NCBI GenBank assembly: GCA_028280565.1 | Contig: JANQLQ010000126.1 | Location: 1-44,680, forward strand | Source of the DNA: Fulvivirga sp. | GTDB taxonomy: Bacteria; Bacteroidota; Bacteroidia; Cytophagales; Cyclobacteriaceae | Length of the DNA stretch: 44,680 nucleotides | Reading direction: 5' to 3' | In this document: in pieces, positions 28,464 through 40,747 of the stretch | How the letters are laid out: each line of letters begins with the position of its first letter | How positions within the stretch are numbered: position 1 is the stretch's first letter | Translations under genes and position numbers: made by a program | The notes under the pieces: model-generated | Database searches by the model: none | Seen by the model: only the letters and a program-made list of their open reading frames with translations | What the model was told of the DNA's origin: nothing

Positions 28464-28525
28464 AATAGTTATGCTAGGAAGTTAAATTTTAGTGTTAAGA
28501 TAGCCAGCAAGAGGCAAAGAAAAAA

Positions 28526-28617
28526 GGCAAATCAAGTATCGCACCGCTACAACCGCCTACCCTTGCTACCTTCCGGTCCTGGGGGAGTTCAGCAGGAGCT
28601 GGTCGTACTGATTTGCC
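28526..28617 (-). ncRNA. ffs: Signal recognition particle RNA (small bacterial 4.5S type)
   Basis: The minus strand begins GGCAAATCAGTACGACC and ends ACTTGATTTGCC, so the ends pair. The apical domain reads CAGGACCGGAAGGTAGCAAG, the conserved SRP asymmetric loop and GGAA tetraloop that bind Ffh. The length of about 92 nt fits the small bacterial form. It is followed on the minus strand by TTTTTTC, a terminator-like U-tract (28520-28525), and preceded by a TACCTTTG -7 box. The RNA with Ffh targets inner-membrane proteins. Confidence 0.93.
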
Positions 28618-28621
28618 GCTT

Positions 28622-28629
28622 CAAAGGTA
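28622..28629 (-). promoter_or_regulatory. -7 promoter box of the SRP RNA gene
   Basis: The minus strand reads TACCTTTG (TAnnTTTG). The RNA 5' end inferred from the closing stem lies four bases beyond the box, a useful internal calibration of where transcription starts relative to this box in this genome. Confidence 0.7.
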
Positions 28630-31983: not shown

Positions 31984-32014
31984 TTTGTTAATTGATCTTA
32001 GCTTACTAGTTTTG
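31984..32014 (+). promoter_or_regulatory. Promoter of the trp operon
   Basis: -33 TTTG at 31984-31987 and -7 TAGTTTTG at 32007-32014 (TAnnTTTG) are separated by 19 bases, a textbook Bacteroidota promoter. Using the SRP RNA calibration, transcription should start near 32018-32019, only about four bases before the leader-peptide ATG. Confidence 0.75.
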
Positions 32015-32022
32015 ATTCCATA

Positions 32023-32082
32023 ATGAGACATAATTATTTCAATAGTGCATGGTGGTGGTACTTTCTGCAGAAGAGAAAGTGA
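32023..32082 (+). CDS. trpL: trp operon leader peptide
   Basis: The frame encodes MRHNYFNSAWWWYFLQKRK (19 residues) with three consecutive Trp codons (TGG at 32050-32058). It lies between the trp promoter and an intrinsic terminator just upstream of trpE. Ribosome stalling at these codons under tryptophan shortage would leave the segment at 32080-32088 free. The start codon lies 8 bases past the -7 box, so translation probably begins at a nearly leaderless 5' end. Too short for homology support; context and the Trp run are the evidence. Confidence 0.85.
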   Translation: MRHNYFNSAWWWYFLQKRK

Positions 32083-32148
32083 ACAGCGCTATTGAGATGT
32101 AAAAATAAAGTCCACGAAAGGGCCCGCTGTTCAACAGCGGGCCTTTTT
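32080..32148 (+). terminator. trp attenuator: antiterminator and terminator
   Basis: Terminator: GGCCCGCTGT (32121-32130), loop TCA, ACAGCGGGCC (32134-32143), a perfect 10-bp stem followed by TTTTT. Antiterminator: TGAACAGCG (32080-32088) is perfectly complementary over 9 bp to CGCTGTTCA (32125-32133), which would destroy the terminator's 5' arm. A third stem, ACTTTCT (32060-32066) with AGAAAGT (32074-32080), can form just after the Trp codons. The leader stop codon overlaps the antiterminator strand, so a ribosome finishing the leader would block antitermination. Confidence 0.85.
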
Positions 32149-32167: not shown

Positions 32168-33568
32168 ATGAAACAGTACCCATTCAAAACTCACTACAAG
32201 AAGCTATTGTCAGATACCCTGACACCGGTCAGCATTTACCTGAAATTAAGGGATAAGTATGCCCAAAGCATCTTATTGGAAAGTTCCGATTACCACGGGA
32301 ATGACAATAGCTTCTCCTATATCTGTTGTGATCCTATTGCCTCTTTCGAAGTGGAAAATGGTATCCTACACCTGTCATGGCCGGATGGATCGTCTAGTAA
32401 AAAGCCAGTAGACCGGGATATCCTGGTCCGTGAACTGCAAGAGTTCAGCCAATCCTTCAAGGCTGACGAGGCACTTGAGTTTAAATTCACCACCAATGGA
32501 TTGTTCGGGTACCTTTGTTACGACGGCGTGAAATATTTCGAAGATATTGACCTTGCCAATAAAAATGCAGAGATTGCCGATGCCGTATATAAGGTCTACA
32601 GGCATGTCATAGTCATTGATCACTTCAAAAACGAGTTGTACCTGTTCGAGCACCTGCTGGAAGGAGAGATAGGTAGCAATCTCGAGCGGGTAGAAGCACT
32701 GGTCAAGGTCAATAGCGACCCCCAATTTACCTTTACACAATCCGGGCAGGAGCTGTCTAACTATACCGACGAACAGTTTTTGGAGATCATTGAAAAGGGT
32801 CGTTCCCATTGCCTTCGTGGCGACGTCTTCCAAGTAGTGCTCTCGCGACGCTTCCAGTCGAAATTTAAAGGAGATGAATTTAACGTTTACCGCGCATTAC
32901 GCTCGATTAATCCCTCTCCTTACCTTTTTTATTTTGATTACGGGAGTTACAAGCTTTTCGGTTCATCGCCCGAATCCCAGATCGTGATCAAGAATGGAGA
33001 AGCGATCATTTACCCGATTGCCGGCACCTTTAGAAGGACAGGGAATGATACTGCTGATGCCGAGCTCGCGCAAAAGCTCTCCGAGGACGAGAAGGAAAAT
33101 AGCGAACATGTCATGTTAGTGGACCTGGCCCGGAATGACCTGAGCCGTAATTCAGAAGAAGTGGCGGTAGAAGTATTTAAAGAGATACAATATTACTCTC
33201 ATGTGATCCACTTGGTGTCAAAGGTCACAGGTAAGCTGGCTGCCGAGGCTAATCCTATCCAACTGGTGGCGGATACTTTCCCGGCGGGCACACTGTCCGG
33301 GGCGCCTAAACATATGGCCATGCAGTTGATTGATAAGTATGAAAATTCCAGCCGAAGCTACTACGGCGGGGCCATTGGCTTCTTAGGTTTTGACGGTGAT
33401 TTTAACCATGCCATTATGATCCGGTCTTTTCTTAGCAAAGACAACACCCTGAGCTACCAGGCCGGGGCGGGTGTAGTGGCCAAATCAGTCGTTGAAAATG
33501 AATTACAAGAGGTGAATAATAAACTTGCCGCACTGAGAAGTGCGCTGAAAATGGCAGAAGAGATATGA
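32168..33568 (+). CDS. trpE: Anthranilate synthase component I
   Basis: TrpE makes anthranilate from chorismate with ammonia supplied by TrpG, the first step of tryptophan synthesis. From the ATG it has 466 residues. The N-terminal regulatory segment ILLESSD carries the LLES motif involved in Trp feedback inhibition. The chorismate-binding domain includes DVFQVVLSRRF, YLFYFDYGSYKLFGSSPE, PIAGTFRR, ENSEHVMLVDLARNDLSR, TFPAGTLSGAPK and YYGGAIGF. An in-frame TTG at 32147 lies in the terminator U-run and is rejected as start. It overlaps trpG by four bases. Confidence 0.96.
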   Translation: MKQYPFKTHYKKLLSDTLTPVSIYLKLRDKYAQSILLESSDYHGNDNSFSYICCDPIASFEVENGILHLSWPDGSSSKKPVDRDILVRELQEFSQSFKADEALEFKFTTNGLFGYLCYDGVKYFEDIDLANKNAEIADAVYKVYRHVIVIDHFKNELYLFEHLLEGEIGSNLERVEALVKVNSDPQFTFTQSGQELSNYTDEQFLEIIEKGRSHCLRGDVFQVVLSRRFQSKFKGDEFNVYRALRSINPSPYLFYFDYGSYKLFGSSPESQIVIKNGEAIIYPIAGTFRRTGNDTADAELAQKLSEDEKENSEHVMLVDLARNDLSRNSEEVAVEVFKEIQYYSHVIHLVSKVTGKLAAEANPIQLVADTFPAGTLSGAPKHMAMQLIDKYENSSRSYYGGAIGFLGFDGDFNHAIMIRSFLSKDNTLSYQAGAGVVAKSVVENELQEVNNKLAALRSALKMAEEI

Positions 33569-34140
33569 AAATATTGGTCTTGGATAATTACGATTCCTTC
33601 ACCTACAACCTTGTGCATATTATTCGCAAGCTGGGATATGCACAGAATATGGAGGTCCATCGCAACGACCATATCGGGTTGGAAGAGGTTGCGAACTACG
33701 ATAAAATTCTCCTTTCGCCCGGCCCGGGTATCCCCAGCGAAGCTGGGATCATGAAACAGGTGATCCAAGAATTTGCCCCTACCAAAAGTATTTTGGGAAT
33801 CTGCCTGGGACACCAGGGGATTGCCGAGGTTTTTGGGGCCGAACTTTATAATATGCCGCTAGTGTTACACGGTATTACCGGTAGGATGAATGTAGAGGAC
33901 ACAGATGAAGCCCTTTTTAAAGGCCTCCCAGCTTCTTTCCAGGGGTGTCATTACCACTCATGGAGTGTAGTGCCAGGGTCAATTAATGGTAGGTTAAAGA
34001 TCACCGCCAGGGACGATCGTGGCCTGGTGATGGGGATCCGCCATACCGAATACGACGTAAAAGGGCTGCAGTTCCACCCCGAGTCGATACTTACTGAAAA
34101 CGGTAGAAAGATCATTGAAAACTGGTTAGCAAATGCATAA
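33565..34140 (+). CDS. trpG: Anthranilate synthase component II (glutamine amidotransferase)
   Basis: This 191-residue class I glutamine amidotransferase feeds ammonia to TrpE. The nucleophile is Cys80 in LGICLGHQGIAE; the other triad residues are His171 and Glu173 in LQFHPES. The oxyanion loop SPGPGIPSEAG is at 51-61. A stand-alone subunit, not fused to trpD. It may also serve para-aminobenzoate synthesis, as in many bacteria. Coupled to trpE by an ATGA overlap. Confidence 0.96.
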   Translation: MKILVLDNYDSFTYNLVHIIRKLGYAQNMEVHRNDHIGLEEVANYDKILLSPGPGIPSEAGIMKQVIQEFAPTKSILGICLGHQGIAEVFGAELYNMPLVLHGITGRMNVEDTDEALFKGLPASFQGCHYHSWSVVPGSINGRLKITARDDRGLVMGIRHTEYDVKGLQFHPESILTENGRKIIENWLANA

Positions 34141-34181
34141 AAATGAAAACGGGAGGTATTTGACCCACAAAAAAGAGTAGC

Positions 34182-35192
34182 ATGAAAGAGACGCTAAATC
34201 AATTGATAGAATATAAAACGCTGGACAAAAAGCGCTCGAAAGAGGTGCTCATGGACCTGGCCCAAGGGAAGTACAACCAGGCGCAGGTAGCGGCCTTCCT
34301 TACGGTTTTCATGATGAGAAGCATCACCGTGGAGGAGCTAGAAGGGTTCCGGGATGCCATGTTGGAGCTATGTGTACCGCTGCACATTGAAGAATATGAC
34401 GCTATCGACTTGTGTGGCACCGGTGGTGACGGAAAAGATACTTTTAATATTTCTACGCTTTCTTCTTTTGTCGTGGCGGGGGCGGGGCAGCCGGTAGCTA
34501 AACATGGCAATAACGGGGTATCTTCGGTATGCGGTTCTTCTAACTTACTGGCCCATTTCGGGTACCAATTCACTAACGATGCGGACCATTTGAAAAAAAG
34601 TTTGGATAACGCCAATATCTGTTTTTTGCATGCCCCCCTTTTCCATCCGGCCATGAAAAATGTGGCGCCTATCCGAAAAGAGCTAGGGGTAAAGACCTTT
34701 TTTAACATGCTCGGCCCTATGGTTAACCCTTCGTTTCCTAAAAAACAACTGGTAGGGGTATTTAACCTGGAGCTGGCCAGGCTTTACGGTTACCTGTACC
34801 AGCAAACGAATAAGGATTTTGTCATTTTACATTCTTTGGACGGTTACGATGAAGTTTCACTGACCGGCGATTTTAAAATGATCTCTAACGACGGAGAGCA
34901 AATATTGAATCCAGCTGACCTTGGGTTAGATGAGATTGACCCTGCTAAGATCTACGGGGGCAGTTCAATCGCCGAATCGGCCAAAATATTCGAAGATGTA
35001 CTCAAAGGCCACGGAACGAGCGAACAGAACGCTACGGTAATTGCAAACGCCGGGATGGCGCTTTATTGTGCCCGCCGAATAGAAGGTATCGAGGAAGCCA
35101 TAGCCCGGGCGCGGGAGTCTTTGGAATCTGGGAAAGCCCTCGCCGCATTTAAAGCATTAATAGACCAAGACACAAAAATTTCAATGAATTGA
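34182..35192 (+). CDS. trpD: Anthranilate phosphoribosyltransferase
   Basis: TrpD joins anthranilate and PRPP. The 336 residues carry the PRPP site CGTGGDGKDTFNIST, the KHGNNGVSS motif, and NVAPIRKELGVKTFFNMLGPMVNP lining the anthranilate tunnel. The C-terminal part, DPAKIYGGSS..., is normal for the family. It lies 41 bases after trpG and four before trpC. Confidence 0.97.
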   Translation: MKETLNQLIEYKTLDKKRSKEVLMDLAQGKYNQAQVAAFLTVFMMRSITVEELEGFRDAMLELCVPLHIEEYDAIDLCGTGGDGKDTFNISTLSSFVVAGAGQPVAKHGNNGVSSVCGSSNLLAHFGYQFTNDADHLKKSLDNANICFLHAPLFHPAMKNVAPIRKELGVKTFFNMLGPMVNPSFPKKQLVGVFNLELARLYGYLYQQTNKDFVILHSLDGYDEVSLTGDFKMISNDGEQILNPADLGLDEIDPAKIYGGSSIAESAKIFEDVLKGHGTSEQNATVIANAGMALYCARRIEGIEEAIARARESLESGKALAAFKALIDQDTKISMN

Positions 35193-35196
35193 CACA

Positions 35197-36006
35197 ATGG
35201 ATATTTTACAAGAAATACTAGCCCATAAGGAAGCCGAGGTAAAACGGAATAAAGCGTTATACCCGGTAAAGCTGCTGGAGCAAAGCCTTTACTTCGGCTC
35301 GCATACGGTATCTATGAAAAAATACCTGCTGCGTGAAGATAAATCCGGCATAATTGCAGAGATCAAAAAGAAGTCCCCTTCTAGGGGGGTGATCAATGCC
35401 TACACCTCCATCGAACGAACGTCCATTGGTTATATGCAGGCAGGAGCATCTGCACTGTCGGTATTGACAGACAAGCAATATTTTGGAGGTACGAATGAAG
35501 ACCTTGTCACCGCCCGTAAATTTAATTTTTGCCCGATCCTGCGCAAGGACTTTATTATCGATGAATACCAGGTCATAGAGGCAAAATCTATCGGGGCTGA
35601 TACCATCCTGCTGATCGCGGCCGCACTCAAGCCTGCCGAGATCAAAGCATTGGCAGAGATGGCAAAGTCATTGGGCCTGGAAACACTCTTGGAAGTGCAC
35701 GATCAAGAAGAATTGGACCGTTCGGTGAACGAATACATTGACCTGGTAGGGGTGAATAATCGTGACTTGAAGACTTTCGAAACCAATGTCCAAACTTCTC
35801 TAGACCTGGTAGGATCGATCCCAGCAGAGTTTGTGAAAGTTTCGGAGAGCGGTATCAGTGAGCCGGAAGATATCTTGGAGCTAAAAAAAGCCGGTTTCCA
35901 TGGCTTTTTGATCGGCGAAAAGTTCATGAAAACCGGTAGGCCCAGCAGGGCGTGTTCCCGGTTTATCGAAGCCCTCAGCCATTTGGAAAACAAGGTCTAT
36001 GCTTGA
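35197..36006 (+). CDS. trpC: Indole-3-glycerol-phosphate synthase
   Basis: This TIM-barrel enzyme closes the indole ring. The 269 residues include IIAEIKKKSPSRGVIN (catalytic Lys in EIKKKSPS), SVLTDKQYFGG, ILRKDFIIDEYQ, DTILLIAAAL, LEVHDQEELD, VGVNNRDLKTF and SESGIS. A stand-alone enzyme; its last 8 bases overlap trpF, so the two are translationally coupled rather than fused. Confidence 0.97.
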   Translation: MDILQEILAHKEAEVKRNKALYPVKLLEQSLYFGSHTVSMKKYLLREDKSGIIAEIKKKSPSRGVINAYTSIERTSIGYMQAGASALSVLTDKQYFGGTNEDLVTARKFNFCPILRKDFIIDEYQVIEAKSIGADTILLIAAALKPAEIKALAEMAKSLGLETLLEVHDQEELDRSVNEYIDLVGVNNRDLKTFETNVQTSLDLVGSIPAEFVKVSESGISEPEDILELKKAGFHGFLIGEKFMKTGRPSRACSRFIEALSHLENKVYA

Positions 36007-36625
36007 CCTCTCACCCATCCAGCTTAAAGTTTGTGGACTCCGGGATAACATCGAGGAGGTGGTAGACCTAAGGCCGGGTTTCATTGGCCTGATCTTTTAC
36101 CCCAAATCCTCCCGGTATGTCGGTGATTTGGACGTGAGTATTGTCCGGCAAATCCCCAAGTATGTTAAAAAAGTAGGGGTATTTGTAAATGAAACCAAGG
36201 AGGAGGTGAGCCAGGTCGTCGATAAGTACGATTTGGACCTGGTCCAGCTTCATGGGGAAGAGTCGCAAGAATATTGTGCTGGGCTAAAAGCGAGGGGGAT
36301 AAGGCTGGTGAAGGTCTTCTCCGGCAACAACTTGCCGGGCCGTAAAGTGCTTGATGCCTACAGCTCATTTATTGATTATTACCTCTTTGATACCCGGGGA
36401 GCAACCTATGGCGGAACGGGTAAAACATTTGACTGGAGGCAGTTAAAGGACCTGCATTTGAAAAAACCGGTATTCATAAGCGGGGGTATCAGCCTGGATA
36501 ATATCTCACAACTGTCAGGACTGGACCTGGATCTTTTTGCCGTGGACGTGAACAGCAAATTCGAGGTGAGCCCGGGATTAAAAGATATAGAAGCGTTGAA
36601 AAAACTGCGAGCAATTTTAGGGTAG
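35999..36625 (+). CDS. trpF: Phosphoribosylanthranilate isomerase
   Basis: TrpF converts phosphoribosylanthranilate to the ribulose form. The 208 residues show the catalytic Cys/Asp pair in KVCGLRD...GFIGLIFYPKSSRYV, VGVFVNETKEEV, LVQLHGEES and GGTGKTFDW, FISGGISLDN, and VDVNSKFEVSPGLKD near the C-terminus. It overlaps trpC by 8 bases and precedes trpB by 12. Confidence 0.95.
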   Translation: MLDLSPIQLKVCGLRDNIEEVVDLRPGFIGLIFYPKSSRYVGDLDVSIVRQIPKYVKKVGVFVNETKEEVSQVVDKYDLDLVQLHGEESQEYCAGLKARGIRLVKVFSGNNLPGRKVLDAYSSFIDYYLFDTRGATYGGTGKTFDWRQLKDLHLKKPVFISGGISLDNISQLSGLDLDLFAVDVNSKFEVSPGLKDIEALKKLRAILG

Positions 36626-36637
36626 AAAAAGAAGAAA

Positions 36638-37858
36638 ATGACGATGGATCAAGAAAATCAATACCTGGAGGATAAAATGAAGTATTCGGTAGATAAAAAA
36701 GGCTATTATGGGCAGTTCGGTGGTGCATATATCCCTGAAATGCTTTATCCAAACATAGAAGAACTCCGCGAAAATTACCTGCAGATCGTAGAAGAGCCCG
36801 GGTTCCAGTCGCAATTCAGGAAGTTGTTAAAAGATTATGTAGGCAGGCCTACCCCTTTATTCTTGGCAGAACGGTTGTCAGAAACCTATGGCGCCCGCAT
36901 TTACTTGAAGCGTGAAGATCTGTGCCATACTGGGGCTCACAAGATCAATAATACGATTGGGCAGATCATACTGGCAAAGAAGCTTGGTAAACAGAGGATC
37001 ATAGCAGAAACAGGTGCGGGTCAGCACGGGGTAGCCACCGCCACGGTCTGTGCTTTAGTAGGAATGGAGTGCATCGTTTACATGGGCAGTGTGGATATGG
37101 AGCGTCAAAAGCCGAATGTAGAACGCATGCGTATATTGGGGGCACAAGTGGTACCGGCCACCAGTGGCAGCCAGACCCTGAAAGATGCCACCAATGAAGC
37201 TATGCGGCATTGGATCAATAACCCAACAGATACACACTATATCATCGGTTCAGTGGTAGGGCCTCACCCTTACCCTGATATGGTGGCAAGGTTCCAGTCC
37301 GTGATCAGTGAAGAGATCAAATTGCAACTAAAAGAGGCTACAGGAGAAGAATACCCGGGTTATGTATTAGCATGTGTGGGAGGAGGAAGTAATGCGGCAG
37401 GCGCTTTCTACCATTTCTTGGATCATGAAGCGGTGAAATTGGTAGCGGTAGAAGCCGCCGGACGAGGTGTAGATTCCGGTGAATCAGCGGCTACCACTGT
37501 ATTGGGTAGACCCGGGGTGCTGCATGGCAGTAAGACCTTGCTGATGCAAACCACGGATGGGCAAGTAGTAGAGCCTTATTCTATCTCTGCTGGGTTGGAC
37601 TATCCCGGTATAGGTCCTATCCATGCCCACTTGTTTGATACAGGACGGGTTTCATTTTTAAACGCTACGGATGAAGAAGCTATGAATGCCGGGATTGAGC
37701 TGAGCCGGTTGGAAGGGATCATCCCTGCCATAGAATCGGCCCATGCTTTTGTGGCGCTTCAAAAATTAGGTCTCAGCCCAAATGACGTGGTGGTGATCAA
37801 CCTCTCGGGGCGCGGGGATAAAGACCTGGAGACCTATATCAAATGGGGGAAATATTAA
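36638..37858 (+). CDS. trpB: Tryptophan synthase beta chain
   Basis: TrpB condenses indole with serine, using PLP. The 406 residues carry [13 protein letters not shown] at the start, [12 protein letters not shown], the PLP Lys102 in [22 protein letters not shown], the phosphate-binding [13 protein letters not shown], and [10 protein letters not shown] at the C-terminus. The start may be either of two closely spaced ATGs (36638 or 36644). It pairs with the alpha chain encoded next. Confidence 0.97.
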
Positions 37859-37928
37859 AAACGGGAGCCCGAGATCAATAAGTCCTGTGTCAATATTGGG
37901 TACGCGCATAGGGCTTTAAACCAAAAAC

Positions 37929-38711
37929 ATGAAAACTATGAACCGGATCAACCAATTGTTTGCCAGGAAAAAGCATGATATTCTTTCTATTTATTATACC
38001 GCGGGATTTCCTGCTTCAAATGATACCTTGAGGGTGGCCAAGTATTTAGAAAAGGCCGGGGCGGATATGATTGAAATAGGCATCCCATTTTCTGACCCGC
38101 TGGCAGACGGCCCTACGATCCAAGAGAGCAATAAGATGGCATTGGACCAGGGAATGACGTTAGAATTACTGTTTGAGCAGCTCGCTGACTTACGGTCATC
38201 AGTGTCTATCCCGGTAATTTTAATGGGATATATCAATCCCGTGATCCAATACGGTGTGGAAAAGTTTTGCCGATCCTGCCAGCAAAGAGGCGTTGACGGA
38301 CTTATATTACCCGACTTGCCGATGCAGGAGTACCAGCAAGAGTATAGGGAGATGTTTGAAGCCTATGGGTTAAAAAATATTTTCCTTATCACCCCTCAAA
38401 CGTCGGACGAGAGGATAAGAGAAGTAGATGCCCATTCTGACAGCTTTATTTATATGGTGTCATCGGCCAGCACCACGGGAGCGAAGAATTCATTTGGGAG
38501 CGCCCAGGATGAATATTTTAAAAAAGTAGATAGGTTAAAATTGACTAACCCAACGTTAGTAGGTTTTGGGATCTCCAATAGATCCACTTACGAGCAAGCC
38601 ACCAGGTATAGTGCCGGTGCCATTATTGGCAGTGCTTTCATCCACCTGCTATCCGGTGCAAAAGACCTGGAAAATGACATTACGAAATTTGTAAAAGAAA
38701 TAAAAGAGTAA
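37929..38711 (+). CDS. trpA: Tryptophan synthase alpha chain
   Basis: TrpA releases indole from indole-3-glycerol phosphate. This 260-residue TIM barrel has catalytic Glu49 (DMIEIGIPFSDPLADGP) and Asp60, the same numbers as in the Salmonella enzyme. GYINPVIQYG, LILPDLPMQE, YMVSSASTTGAKN and VGFGISN follow in the family order. A 70-base gap separates it from trpB and no terminator is visible in it. Confidence 0.97.
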   Translation: MKTMNRINQLFARKKHDILSIYYTAGFPASNDTLRVAKYLEKAGADMIEIGIPFSDPLADGPTIQESNKMALDQGMTLELLFEQLADLRSSVSIPVILMGYINPVIQYGVEKFCRSCQQRGVDGLILPDLPMQEYQQEYREMFEAYGLKNIFLITPQTSDERIREVDAHSDSFIYMVSSASTTGAKNSFGSAQDEYFKKVDRLKLTNPTLVGFGISNRSTYEQATRYSAGAIIGSAFIHLLSGAKDLENDITKFVKEIKE

Positions 38712-38715
38712 GCCC

Positions 38716-39726
38716 ATGATCATTCAATTGGAAAAAGAAATCGCTGAAAAGGATAAACAGAAGATTATTAAAAAGGTCCAGGACCTGAAGTATAAGATCA
38801 CCGATGTGCGGACGCAGAAAGGGGACTACCTTGTTGGTATCGGTAAAAAAGAGTTCGATATCCGAGATGTAGGCCATATGCCGGGGATTTCCGATATACA
38901 CATCGTATCCGATGCTTATAAATTAGTTTCAAAAAAGTGGAAGGTAAAACCTACCATCATCGATTTGGGAAATGGTATTACCATCGAAAAGGGAGGCATG
39001 GCCATAATGGCAGGTCCTTGTTCGATAGAAGGAGAGGAGCAAATAGAAAAAACGATCGCCCACCTGGTAGAAAATGATGTGAAGATCATGCGTGGGGGAG
39101 TGTATAAACCGAGAAGCTCACCCTATTCATTCCGGGGATTAGGAATAGAGGGCCTTAAGCTCTGGTACCAGGCGGCGAAAGAGGCAGGTATTAAGATCAT
39201 CACGGAAGTGATGCAAGTCTCGCAAATTGAAGAAATGTATGAATACGTGGATATCTACCAGGTAGGGGCAAGGAATACCCAGAACTTTAATTTGTTAGAC
39301 GAGCTGGGTTTGGTGGATAAGCCGGTCCTTATCAAACGGGGAATTTCTGGTACAATCGACGAGCTTTTATCTTCCGCGGAGTATGTTTTTTCGGCGGGGA
39401 ATGAAAACTTGATGCTTTGCGAACGCGGCATAAGAACCTACGAAAAAGCTAGCCGCAACACAATGGATATTAATGCGATAAGTATTTTAAAGGAAAAGTC
39501 ACACCTTCCCGTGATCGCAGACCCATCTCATGGTATTGGTATTCGAGATCATGTCGGGGCTATTGCACTGGCCTGTATTATGGCGGGAGCTGACGGGGTG
39601 ATCTATGAGACGCACGAAAAACCGGAAGAAGCTTACTCCGATGGACAACAGACGTTGGATTTTAGGGAATCTGCCCGGTTGATCTCTAAAATGCGAAAGG
39701 TGTTTGAATTAAGGGAAAGTTTTTAG
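38716..39726 (+). CDS. aroF: 3-deoxy-7-phosphoheptulonate (DAHP) synthase
   Basis: This is the first enzyme of the shikimate pathway, of the I-beta type with an N-terminal ferredoxin-like regulatory domain (about residues 1-70, as in Thermotoga). The 336 residues include MAGPCSIEGEEQ, KIMRGGVYKPRSSPYSFRGLG, TEVMQVSQ, QVGARNTQNFNLL, VLIKRGISGTIDELL, ERGIRTYE, PVIADPSHGIGIRDHV and a C-terminal YETHEKPEEAYSDGQQTLD. No chorismate mutase domain is attached. It follows trpA by four bases, so the Trp attenuator should also control carbon entry into the aromatic pathway. Confidence 0.95.
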   Translation: MIIQLEKEIAEKDKQKIIKKVQDLKYKITDVRTQKGDYLVGIGKKEFDIRDVGHMPGISDIHIVSDAYKLVSKKWKVKPTIIDLGNGITIEKGGMAIMAGPCSIEGEEQIEKTIAHLVENDVKIMRGGVYKPRSSPYSFRGLGIEGLKLWYQAAKEAGIKIITEVMQVSQIEEMYEYVDIYQVGARNTQNFNLLDELGLVDKPVLIKRGISGTIDELLSSAEYVFSAGNENLMLCERGIRTYEKASRNTMDINAISILKEKSHLPVIADPSHGIGIRDHVGAIALACIMAGADGVIYETHEKPEEAYSDGQQTLDFRESARLISKMRKVFELRESF

Positions 39727-39789
39727 CGAGGAATAGGGTGGAGATGGCACCGGCAGGTAGTAGGCAAAGAAAATTAATTAAGCCTTCAG

Positions 39790-39819
39790 CTTGTATTTTA
39801 AAATTATCTGCTATCTTTG
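39790..39819 (+). promoter_or_regulatory. Promoter of the Tyr-codon leader and phhA
   Basis: CTTG at 39790-39793 and TATCTTTG at 39812-39819 (TAnnTTTG) are separated by 18 bases. The expected start, four to five bases beyond the box, is about 39823-39824, four to five bases before the leader ATG. Confidence 0.7.
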
Positions 39820-39827
39820 AAATTCAA

Positions 39828-39893
39828 ATGAGAAACTTTAACACATATTATTACTACTATTTTAGCACCGATCGTTCGGAGCGGGTAGTATAG
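39828..39893 (+). CDS. Tyrosine-codon leader peptide upstream of phhA
   Basis: The frame encodes a 21-residue peptide starting MRNFNTYYYYYFSTDRSE and ending RVV, with five consecutive Tyr codons (39846-39860) flanked by Phe codons. It lies between an exact -7 box and an intrinsic terminator in front of phenylalanine 4-monooxygenase. The ATG is 8 bases beyond the -7 box, the same distance as in trpL. The codon content predicts stalling when charged tRNA-Tyr is scarce. Confidence 0.82.
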   Translation: MRNFNTYYYYYFSTDRSERVV

Positions 39894-39953
39894 TGTGTTT
39901 ATAAATAAAAATTTAAATACGAAGCCTGGTTCCGAAAGAGCCGGGCTTTTTTT
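39875..39953 (+). terminator. Tyr attenuator: antiterminator and terminator
   Basis: Terminator: AAGCCTGGTTC (39922-39932), loop CGAAA, GAGCCGGGCTT (39938-39948), an 11-bp stem with two G-U pairs followed by a T-run to 39953. Antiterminator: TTCGGAGC (39875-39882) pairs with GTTCCGAA (39929-39936), 8 bp with one G-U, overlapping the terminator's 5' arm and loop. The Tyr-codon segment TACTAC (39852-39857) can pair with GTAGTA (39885-39890), a competing upstream stem that a ribosome stalled on the Tyr codons would block. Confidence 0.78.
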
Positions 39954-39976
39954 ATGATCTATTTTAACTAAAAGCA

Positions 39977-40747
39977 ATGAAGACAAAGCAGAACATCCCG
40001 ACCCTCAAAGACATGAAACAGGTGTACGAAGCGTACACCGAGGAGGATCATAAAGTTTGGAAGATCCTGTTCGAACGGCAGATCGTTAATCTTCCCAAAG
40101 CGGCTACAAAAGAATACCACGTTGGGTTAAAAAAGATCAACTTTACGGCAGATCGTATCCCGAACTTCGAAGAGACGAATGAGATCTTAAGATCGTTGAC
40201 CGGTTGGGAACTCGTAGCCGTAGAAGGGATCGTTGATGATAAGCTCTTTTTTGAGCTCATGTCTAACAAGAAGTTCCCTGCTACCACATGGTTACGGAAA
40301 ATGAGCGAGCTGGATTACCTAGAAGAGCCGGACATGTTCCATGATGTTTTTGCCCATGTGCCTCTATTGACTAACCAAGCTTTTGTAGATTTCTTGCAAG
40401 CCATTAGCAGTATAGGCCATGAGTATGCTGATGATCCTGTGGCTATCGATCTCCTCTCCCGTGTATATTGGTTTACCGTGGAGTTTGGCCTGATCAGGGA
40501 AAACGGCGAGCCCCGCATCTACGGCGCAGGGATCCTTTCTTCTGCCGGTGAGACTGATTTTTCCTTGGGTACAGAACCTAAGCACTTTGAATACCACGTA
40601 GAGCAGATCCTAAACACACCTTACCGAAAAGATGTATTTCAAGACCGGTACTTCATCGTGGACTCTTATGAGCAGCTTTTTGATTCTATAGACGAGATCA
40701 AGAACGGGCTGACAGAAAAGCTTAATAAGCTATTGATTTTTGGCTGA
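39977..40747 (+). CDS. phhA: Phenylalanine 4-monooxygenase
   Basis: This pterin-dependent aromatic amino-acid hydroxylase converts phenylalanine to tyrosine. The 256-residue bacterial form lacks the regulatory domain of animal enzymes. Iron ligands are His122 and His127 in FHDVFAHVPLL and Glu169 in FTVEFGLI. WELVAVEGIVDD and FPATTWLRKMSELDYLEEPDMFHD are typical of the family, and YGAGILSS follows. It is preceded by a Tyr-codon attenuator and sits directly after the trp/aroF operon, pointing to tyrosine synthesis rather than Phe breakdown. Its 3' end overlaps the convergent kinase gene by 26 bases. Confidence 0.95.
   Translation: MKTKQNIPTLKDMKQVYEAYTEEDHKVWKILFERQIVNLPKAATKEYHVGLKKINFTADRIPNFEETNEILRSLTGWELVAVEGIVDDKLFFELMSNKKFPATTWLRKMSELDYLEEPDMFHDVFAHVPLLTNQAFVDFLQAISSIGHEYADDPVAIDLLSRVYWFTVEFGLIRENGEPRIYGAGILSSAGETDFSLGTEPKHFEYHVEQILNTPYRKDVFQDRYFIVDSYEQLFDSIDEIKNGLTEKLNKLLIFG

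Follow-up and report, generated by a model that had tools for sequence, protein, structure and literature searches.

Bacterial phenylalanine hydroxylase is often read as a catabolic enzyme. Three things are known already: leader-peptide attenuation, a biosynthetic role of the hydroxylase in bacteria and, in the Bacillus cereus group, a T-box acting on its gene. The accessible part of PMC7311316 describes Echinicola vietnamensis, Dyella japonica and Legionella as making tyrosine with phenylalanine hydroxylase, and that of PMC2494555 places a T-box before the phenylalanine-4-hydroxylase gene of the B. cereus group. As for leaders of other aromatic operons, the Bacteroid-trp leader RNA (Rfam RF01692) is named in a table within the available part of PMC2864571, while the available part of a 2005 TyrA paper (PMC1173090) presents predicted attenuators of tyrA operons, one of them from Bacteroides.

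Herein, we describe a predicted tyrosine-codon attenuator in front of phhA, the gene of phenylalanine 4-monooxygenase, in a window of 44,680 nt (the whole stretch of DNA analysed) from Fulvivirga sp. A sequence-only reading of this DNA had proposed the device and knew of no earlier description of one for this enzyme. Among the matches listed, which cover open-access titles and abstracts, we recognised no Tyr attenuator of phhA, but a biosynthetic hydroxylase and T-box control of its gene had been published before, as the accessible parts of the papers above indicate.

The phhA Locus and Its Leader

The genes trpE-G-D-C-F-B-A, with DAHP synthase (38716..39726, forward strand) as the final gene, form a cluster at 32171-39726 according to Pfam. 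On the same strand, 250 bases past the end of this cluster, begins phhA (39977..40747), the putative controlled gene, recognised from its ORF of 256 aa and from Pfam and PDB matches; the next large ORF beyond it lies on the opposite strand. The phhA product scores 159 bits against Pfam Biopterin_H (cut-off 22.7), has phenylalanine-4-hydroxylases as its best matches among solved structures (PDB) and contains His-Asp-x-Phe-x-His, the metal motif of biopterin-dependent aromatic amino acid hydroxylases. By domain and motif, it would clearly be an enzyme of this kind.

Upstream of phhA, the predicted promoter box TATCTTTG (39812..39819, forward strand) fits TAnnTTTG, the promoter box consensus typical of Bacteroidota, exactly, and stands 16 nt upstream of the ATG of a 21-codon ORF, MRNFNTYYYYYFSTDRSERVV (39828..39893, forward strand). 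Given the position of this predicted box, transcription would start just upstream of the ATG, and the leader mRNA would be nearly leaderless. The predicted leader peptide, MRNFNTYYYYYF..., is encoded by a short ORF in which codons for the pathway product stand in a row: five consecutive Tyr codons (TAT TAT TAC TAC TAT) occupy 39846..39860, a run that is conserved in relatives. The segment 39843..39898 forms a 1:2 hairpin in the minimum free energy fold (duplex z -2.5 versus shuffles) and encloses the 5' strand of a predicted antiterminator, GTTCGGAGCGGGTA (39874..39887). The 3' strand of the latter (39923..39937), found by duplex and stall folds, is shared with the terminator, where it belongs to the 5' arm and the loop; the antiterminator duplex has a dG of -16.7 (z -3.5), recurs in stalled-ribosome folds and excludes the terminator, just as the 1:2 hairpin excludes the antiterminator. 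Between the leader and the first gene, a terminator scan and folding identify an intrinsic terminator at 39921..39953, predicted to be a hairpin (39921-39949) of 12 pairs, counting G-U, with a dG of -18.1, followed by T's. The box, the 21 codons with their five consecutive tyrosines and the antiterminator-capable segment had all been noticed by the sequence-only reading and were recovered as described; the terminator with its T-run is likewise there, but with 12 pairs including G-U instead of the 11 reported. Overall, the leader RNA of 135 nt folds at -37.7 kcal/mol against a shuffle mean of -22.6 (z -4.3), and 0 of 200 shuffles folded as well.

No T-box reached its gathering score anywhere in the window, a search of 39780-39990 up to E 5 gave none either, and RF01692 is absent from the 24 matches of the Tyr leader up to E 5. 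The best sub-threshold Rfam match of this leader is Thr_leader, with 28.8 bits versus 55.

Before trpE, at 32007-32148 on the forward strand, there is a Trp attenuator made up of a box (TAGTTTTG), a leader with three Trp codons (MRHNYFNSAWWWYFLQKRK, 32023-32082) and a strong terminator (32120-32143) followed by T's. The window therefore holds two attenuators of one design, a Trp leader for trpE and a Tyr leader for phhA. Compared with Rfam Bacteroid-trp (RF01692), the Trp leader gives a weak match of 26.5 bits (cut-off 49, E 0.46). At gathering scores, Rfam detected nothing in the whole window except a Bacteroidales-type small SRP RNA, which lies on the reverse strand at 28522-28624 (RF04183, 79 bits).

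A Model of the Switch

In the ribosome-free fold, the stretch with the Tyr codons is base-paired to the second half of the leader (39843-39898), and the terminator hairpin is present. When a stall was modelled at Tyr 1, 3 or 5, the antiterminator appeared at -18.6 kcal/mol in RNA extending up to the terminator 5' arm, and with the ribosome modelled at the stop codon, the antiterminator was gone (-0.1) and the terminator (-18.7) formed. At equilibrium, with the complete terminator included, the terminator is preferred in every state, stalled ones among them; therefore, the switch needs kinetic, co-transcriptional folding. Attenuators work during transcription.

We propose that, when Tyr-tRNA is plentiful, a ribosome would clear the five Tyr codons, reach the stop codon and mask the antiterminator strand, so that the terminator would form and phhA would be off. 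When Tyr-tRNA is scarce, the ribosome would stall at the Tyr codons, open the 1:2 hairpin and free 39874-39887, which could then pair with the terminator 5' arm and let the polymerase continue into phhA, whose enzyme would convert phenylalanine to tyrosine. Without a ribosome on the Tyr codons, the 1:2 hairpin would keep the antiterminator strand hidden. Read-through from the trp cluster may also reach phhA. Overall, we might conclude, with a probability of roughly 0.9, that a ribosome-mediated transcription attenuator makes the expression of phhA depend on charged tRNA-Tyr.

Conservation of the Leader

The family (Cyclobacteriaceae) was sampled evenly with 196 genomes; phhA was matched in 130, and 122 upstream regions (30 plus 92) were read, the other 8 being partial, weak or distant hits, which were excluded. 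With a threshold of 4 Tyr or His codons in 9, a Tyr/His-rich short ORF was found in 45/122 regions; 43 of the 45 also possess a terminator, and the 2 lacking one were dropped. Leader and terminator are thus present together in 43/122 regions, spanning 19 genera, and were not detected as a pair in the remaining 79. Conservation of the Tyr run among relatives was one of two points on which the sequence-only reading had allowed itself to be overturned, and it has survived this comparison. The same numbers bear on the mode of action. Some leader peptides act on translation or mRNA stability, and the phhA leader might do mainly this instead of controlling termination, but of the 45 genomes whose phhA is preceded by a Tyr/His-rich ORF, 43 also have a terminator-like hairpin with a T-run there, and we regard this explanation as very improbable indeed.

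One could also suppose that the hairpin does no more than end the transcription of the trp genes and DAHP synthase, and that an open frame rich in Tyr stands there by chance. A terminator at the end of an operon is ordinary, and a consensus scan of the forward strand from DAHP synthase to phhA found no second one. The five-fold TAY pattern occurs once in the 9.05-Mb genome, at the phhA leader; such a run is not improbable in this genome because the pattern read backwards is found 5 times, and what counts is where it lies, with a promoter box ahead of it and a terminator behind it. Against a chance frame stands the recurrence of ORF and terminator in 19 genera, behind differing upstream genes. 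Besides, Tyr-rich ORFs (4 or more Tyr per 9 codons, no more than 330 nt upstream) are present in 34/122 regions versus 0-2 after shuffling (20 dinucleotide-preserving rounds on the same 122 regions), and at 5 of 9 codons Tyr/His-rich ORFs number 40/122 versus 0-1. The residues ranking next in this test were Leu (13), Ser (6), Ile (5), Arg (5) and His (4), and Phe is absent from the residue list for these 122 regions.

Pairing preferences point in the same direction. In 37/43 leaders and 17/19 genera, the antiterminator strand prefers its own terminator arm over the mean of those from other genera (Wilcoxon on genus means, p 2e-5), with only 16/43 leaders reaching the best tenth in this partner-swap control. 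Taken singly against shuffles, the leaders show modest significance, with 25/43 reaching p<0.05 for the antiterminator and 26/43 for the 1:2 pairing. The chance-frame explanation thus appears to be largely refuted already by conservation, and we give it next to no credence.

Returning to the attenuator, 23/43 leaders have a TAnnTTTG-like box no farther than 60 nt from their start (shuffle mean 2.3). In 17 of those 23 (17/43 leaders), it stands 13-19 nt ahead of the ATG, and the mRNAs from which these 17 peptides would be made are probably nearly leaderless. The nearest relative of our locus, L032, with a phhA 90% identical, keeps the Tyr run with one synonymous change; past the run its peptide is in a different frame, yet the RNA is still alike. 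It seems that codons matter within the run and RNA pairing behind it.

Outside the family, we read the best 25 of 92 matched genomes (L268-L292) and found Tyr leaders in 2 of these loci (G247 and G212), the terminator-like hairpins being judged by eye. In G212, the leader precedes phhA and, as judged by eye, an apparent pterin dehydratase gene.

Codon Content and Gene Order

In many relatives, His codons are mixed into the run (YHYHYYH and YVHHSYH, for example), and in one locus (L105) it consists almost entirely of His. This composition matches the operon: a phhA without partners, or with an aminotransferase gene and tyrA behind it, has a Tyr run, and the run is mixed Tyr/His where hisH (usually with hisA and hisF) comes behind phhA on the same strand. 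In the family sample, counted on 42/43 leaders (G002 was excluded, its downstream part lying beyond the contig), at least two His are found in the run of 27/30 leaders with hisH behind versus 0/12 without, and at least one in 30/30 versus 3/12. A second, overlapping set of mostly named genomes, comprising 67 rows (leader-bearing loci and 11 added genomes), gave at least two His in 50/53 with hisH versus 0/14 without. The His count of L032 was set from 1 to 0 by hand, its His being four codons behind the run, which leaves the table for at least two His unaffected. Even within one genus (g55), the two genomes with hisH behind phhA have HYYYYYH and HNHYYYYH, and the three without it HNTYYYYY, YYYYY and HNTYYYYY.

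For the phhA tree, 110 loci were reduced to 104 usable ones with 87 distinct proteins. The best tree contains 4 gene-order changes, 2 of them on well-supported branches, and in random pairings the His trait changed in the same direction in 1.8 of 2 and in the opposite direction in 0. The association of His codons with hisH thus appears striking, though it rests on two to four independent changes and is not phylogenetically significant, because such changes are too few.

Twelve leader genomes have no hisH behind phhA, and the hisG search covered ten of these (all but G116 and G191). In eight of them (G000, G107, G036, G186, G142, G011, G076 and G075), hisH lies about 4.2 kb behind hisG, and in G023 and G055 it is apart from both phhA and hisG. 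The hisG upstream regions of the same genomes (L207-L236) contain a His-rich ORF in 30/30 cases and a Tyr-rich one in 0/30, a count of ORFs alone. Many of the ORFs upstream of hisG end in HHFHHSS. Belliella pelovolcani (L089) has hisH, hisA and hisF behind phhA, yet no leader with terminator was found before its phhA.

Two other origins of the His codons were considered. Queuosine is carried by the tRNAs for Tyr as well as by those for His, and it has a precursor in common with the pterin of the hydroxylase. Sensing of queuosine was rejected, since Asn accounts for 5 and Asp for 0 of 307 codons inside runs (each counted from its first to its last Tyr or His, a choice that works against Asn at the edges), and since His becomes frequent only ahead of his genes. 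Drift from TAY to CAY is unneeded as an explanation: His follows hisH, and 0/30 hisG regions are Tyr-rich.

In relatives with hisH-A-F behind phhA, the device with its Tyr and His codons would open on a shortage of either amino acid. We think it fairly probable that the phhA leader is a retunable bivalent attenuator sensing Tyr, or Tyr and His, whose codon mix kept in step with the downstream genes while hisH-A-F changed places between the his operon and phhA. In species lacking prephenate dehydrogenase, such a leader would govern the sole source of tyrosine, an enzyme that depends on oxygen and pterin.

The Role of phhA

Prephenate dehydrogenase (PF02153) had no match in 17/196 family genomes, 13 of which are at least 90% complete. 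Of these 13, phhA is present in 12, and the second TyrA domain (PF20463) is absent from all 12. The leader is carried by 8 of these 12, compared with 35/110 of the others (p 0.02, uncorrected for relatedness). One further family genome, G164, is 99% complete and matched neither tyrA nor phhA; it might possibly belong to a tyrosine auxotroph or to an organism with an unrecognised route.

Neighbouring genes were named by likeness. In two tyrA-less genomes without the leader (G141 and G165), phhA is the gene directly after a group of trp genes with DAHP synthase, an arrangement shared with G106, where the PF02153 match is weak and PF20463 missing. In tyrA-less G109, phhA is situated between trpA and hisH, and in tyrA-less G022 it has neither of these placements. 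In the Fulvivirga-like G036, G186 and G142, phhA, an aminotransferase gene and tyrA follow one another on the same strand behind a pure Tyr leader.

The sequence-only reading had taken phhA for the tyrosine biosynthetic step, and had singled out tyrA and the homogentisate-pathway genes for a survey. The source genome has tyrA, and because of this phhA would be a second tyrosine route there, not the sole one. HPPD is present as well, and a catabolic side role of phhA may exist. Before the aminotransferase and tyrA genes of the source genome, 2.9 kb read on their strand contained neither four Tyr/Phe nor three His in a row. Echinicola, which we take to belong to the same family as the source genome, is probably represented by G190 (presumably E. 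vietnamensis), whose leader MKNLSVKYYSYYYHFLPEKD is accompanied by a terminator. For E. vietnamensis, fitness data led the authors of PMC7311316, in its accessible part, to propose that hydroxylase and dehydrogenase both make tyrosine.

Might phhA serve the breakdown of Phe and Tyr, with the leader tuning this to tyrosine? HPPD, found in the source genome and above the family cut-off in 152/196 genomes, would fit such a switch, but a Tyr-codon attenuator closes its gene at high Tyr, which is the wrong direction for breakdown. We consider a catabolic switch very unlikely, and favour the biosynthetic reading because the neighbours of phhA are trp and DAHP synthase genes, aminotransferase-tyrA or hisH-A-F, because near-complete genomes without tyrA keep phhA, and because of the Echinicola fitness data (PMC7311316, accessible part). 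The original claim is thus supported as to the kind of step, qualified by the tyrA and HPPD of the source genome.

Comparison with Known Systems

With this leader, a bacterial phenylalanine hydroxylase gains a regulatory signature of tyrosine synthesis that is legible from sequence alone, and the tyrA-less genomes point to species whose tyrosine synthesis may need oxygen. Tyr and Tyr/His leaders offer a natural experiment on how sensing changes when an operon changes. To our knowledge, few descriptions exist of amino acid attenuators in these bacteria; the Tyr, Trp and His leaders together suggest that such devices are a general habit of theirs. His-rich ORFs before hisG (30/30) and the Trp leader before trpE would likewise suggest transcription-translation coupling in the phylum.

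Among described systems, the hydroxylases of Echinicola vietnamensis, Dyella japonica and Legionella share the enzyme and its role with phhA (PMC7311316), the accessible part of that paper being silent on how the gene is regulated. Bacteroid-trp (RF01692) is also a leader RNA of an aromatic operon in Bacteroidetes, but for Trp. The T-box of the B. cereus group controls the same gene by tRNA-dependent antitermination, its RNA binding the tRNA directly (PMC2494555, accessible part), whereas in our window a predicted translated leader takes the place of the T-box. The closest likeness in design is to the trp, his, thr, ilv and pheA attenuators of E. coli, which also combine an ORF with product codons, competing hairpins and an intrinsic terminator. 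The thr and ilv attenuators have mixed codons, each of these operons serving more than one amino acid, and the mixed Tyr/His leaders of phhA resemble them in this respect. Unlike the E. coli attenuators, the phhA leader would sense Tyr, has phenylalanine hydroxylase as its target, shows Tyr/His mixtures in relatives and follows a Bacteroidota-type promoter box very close to its start.
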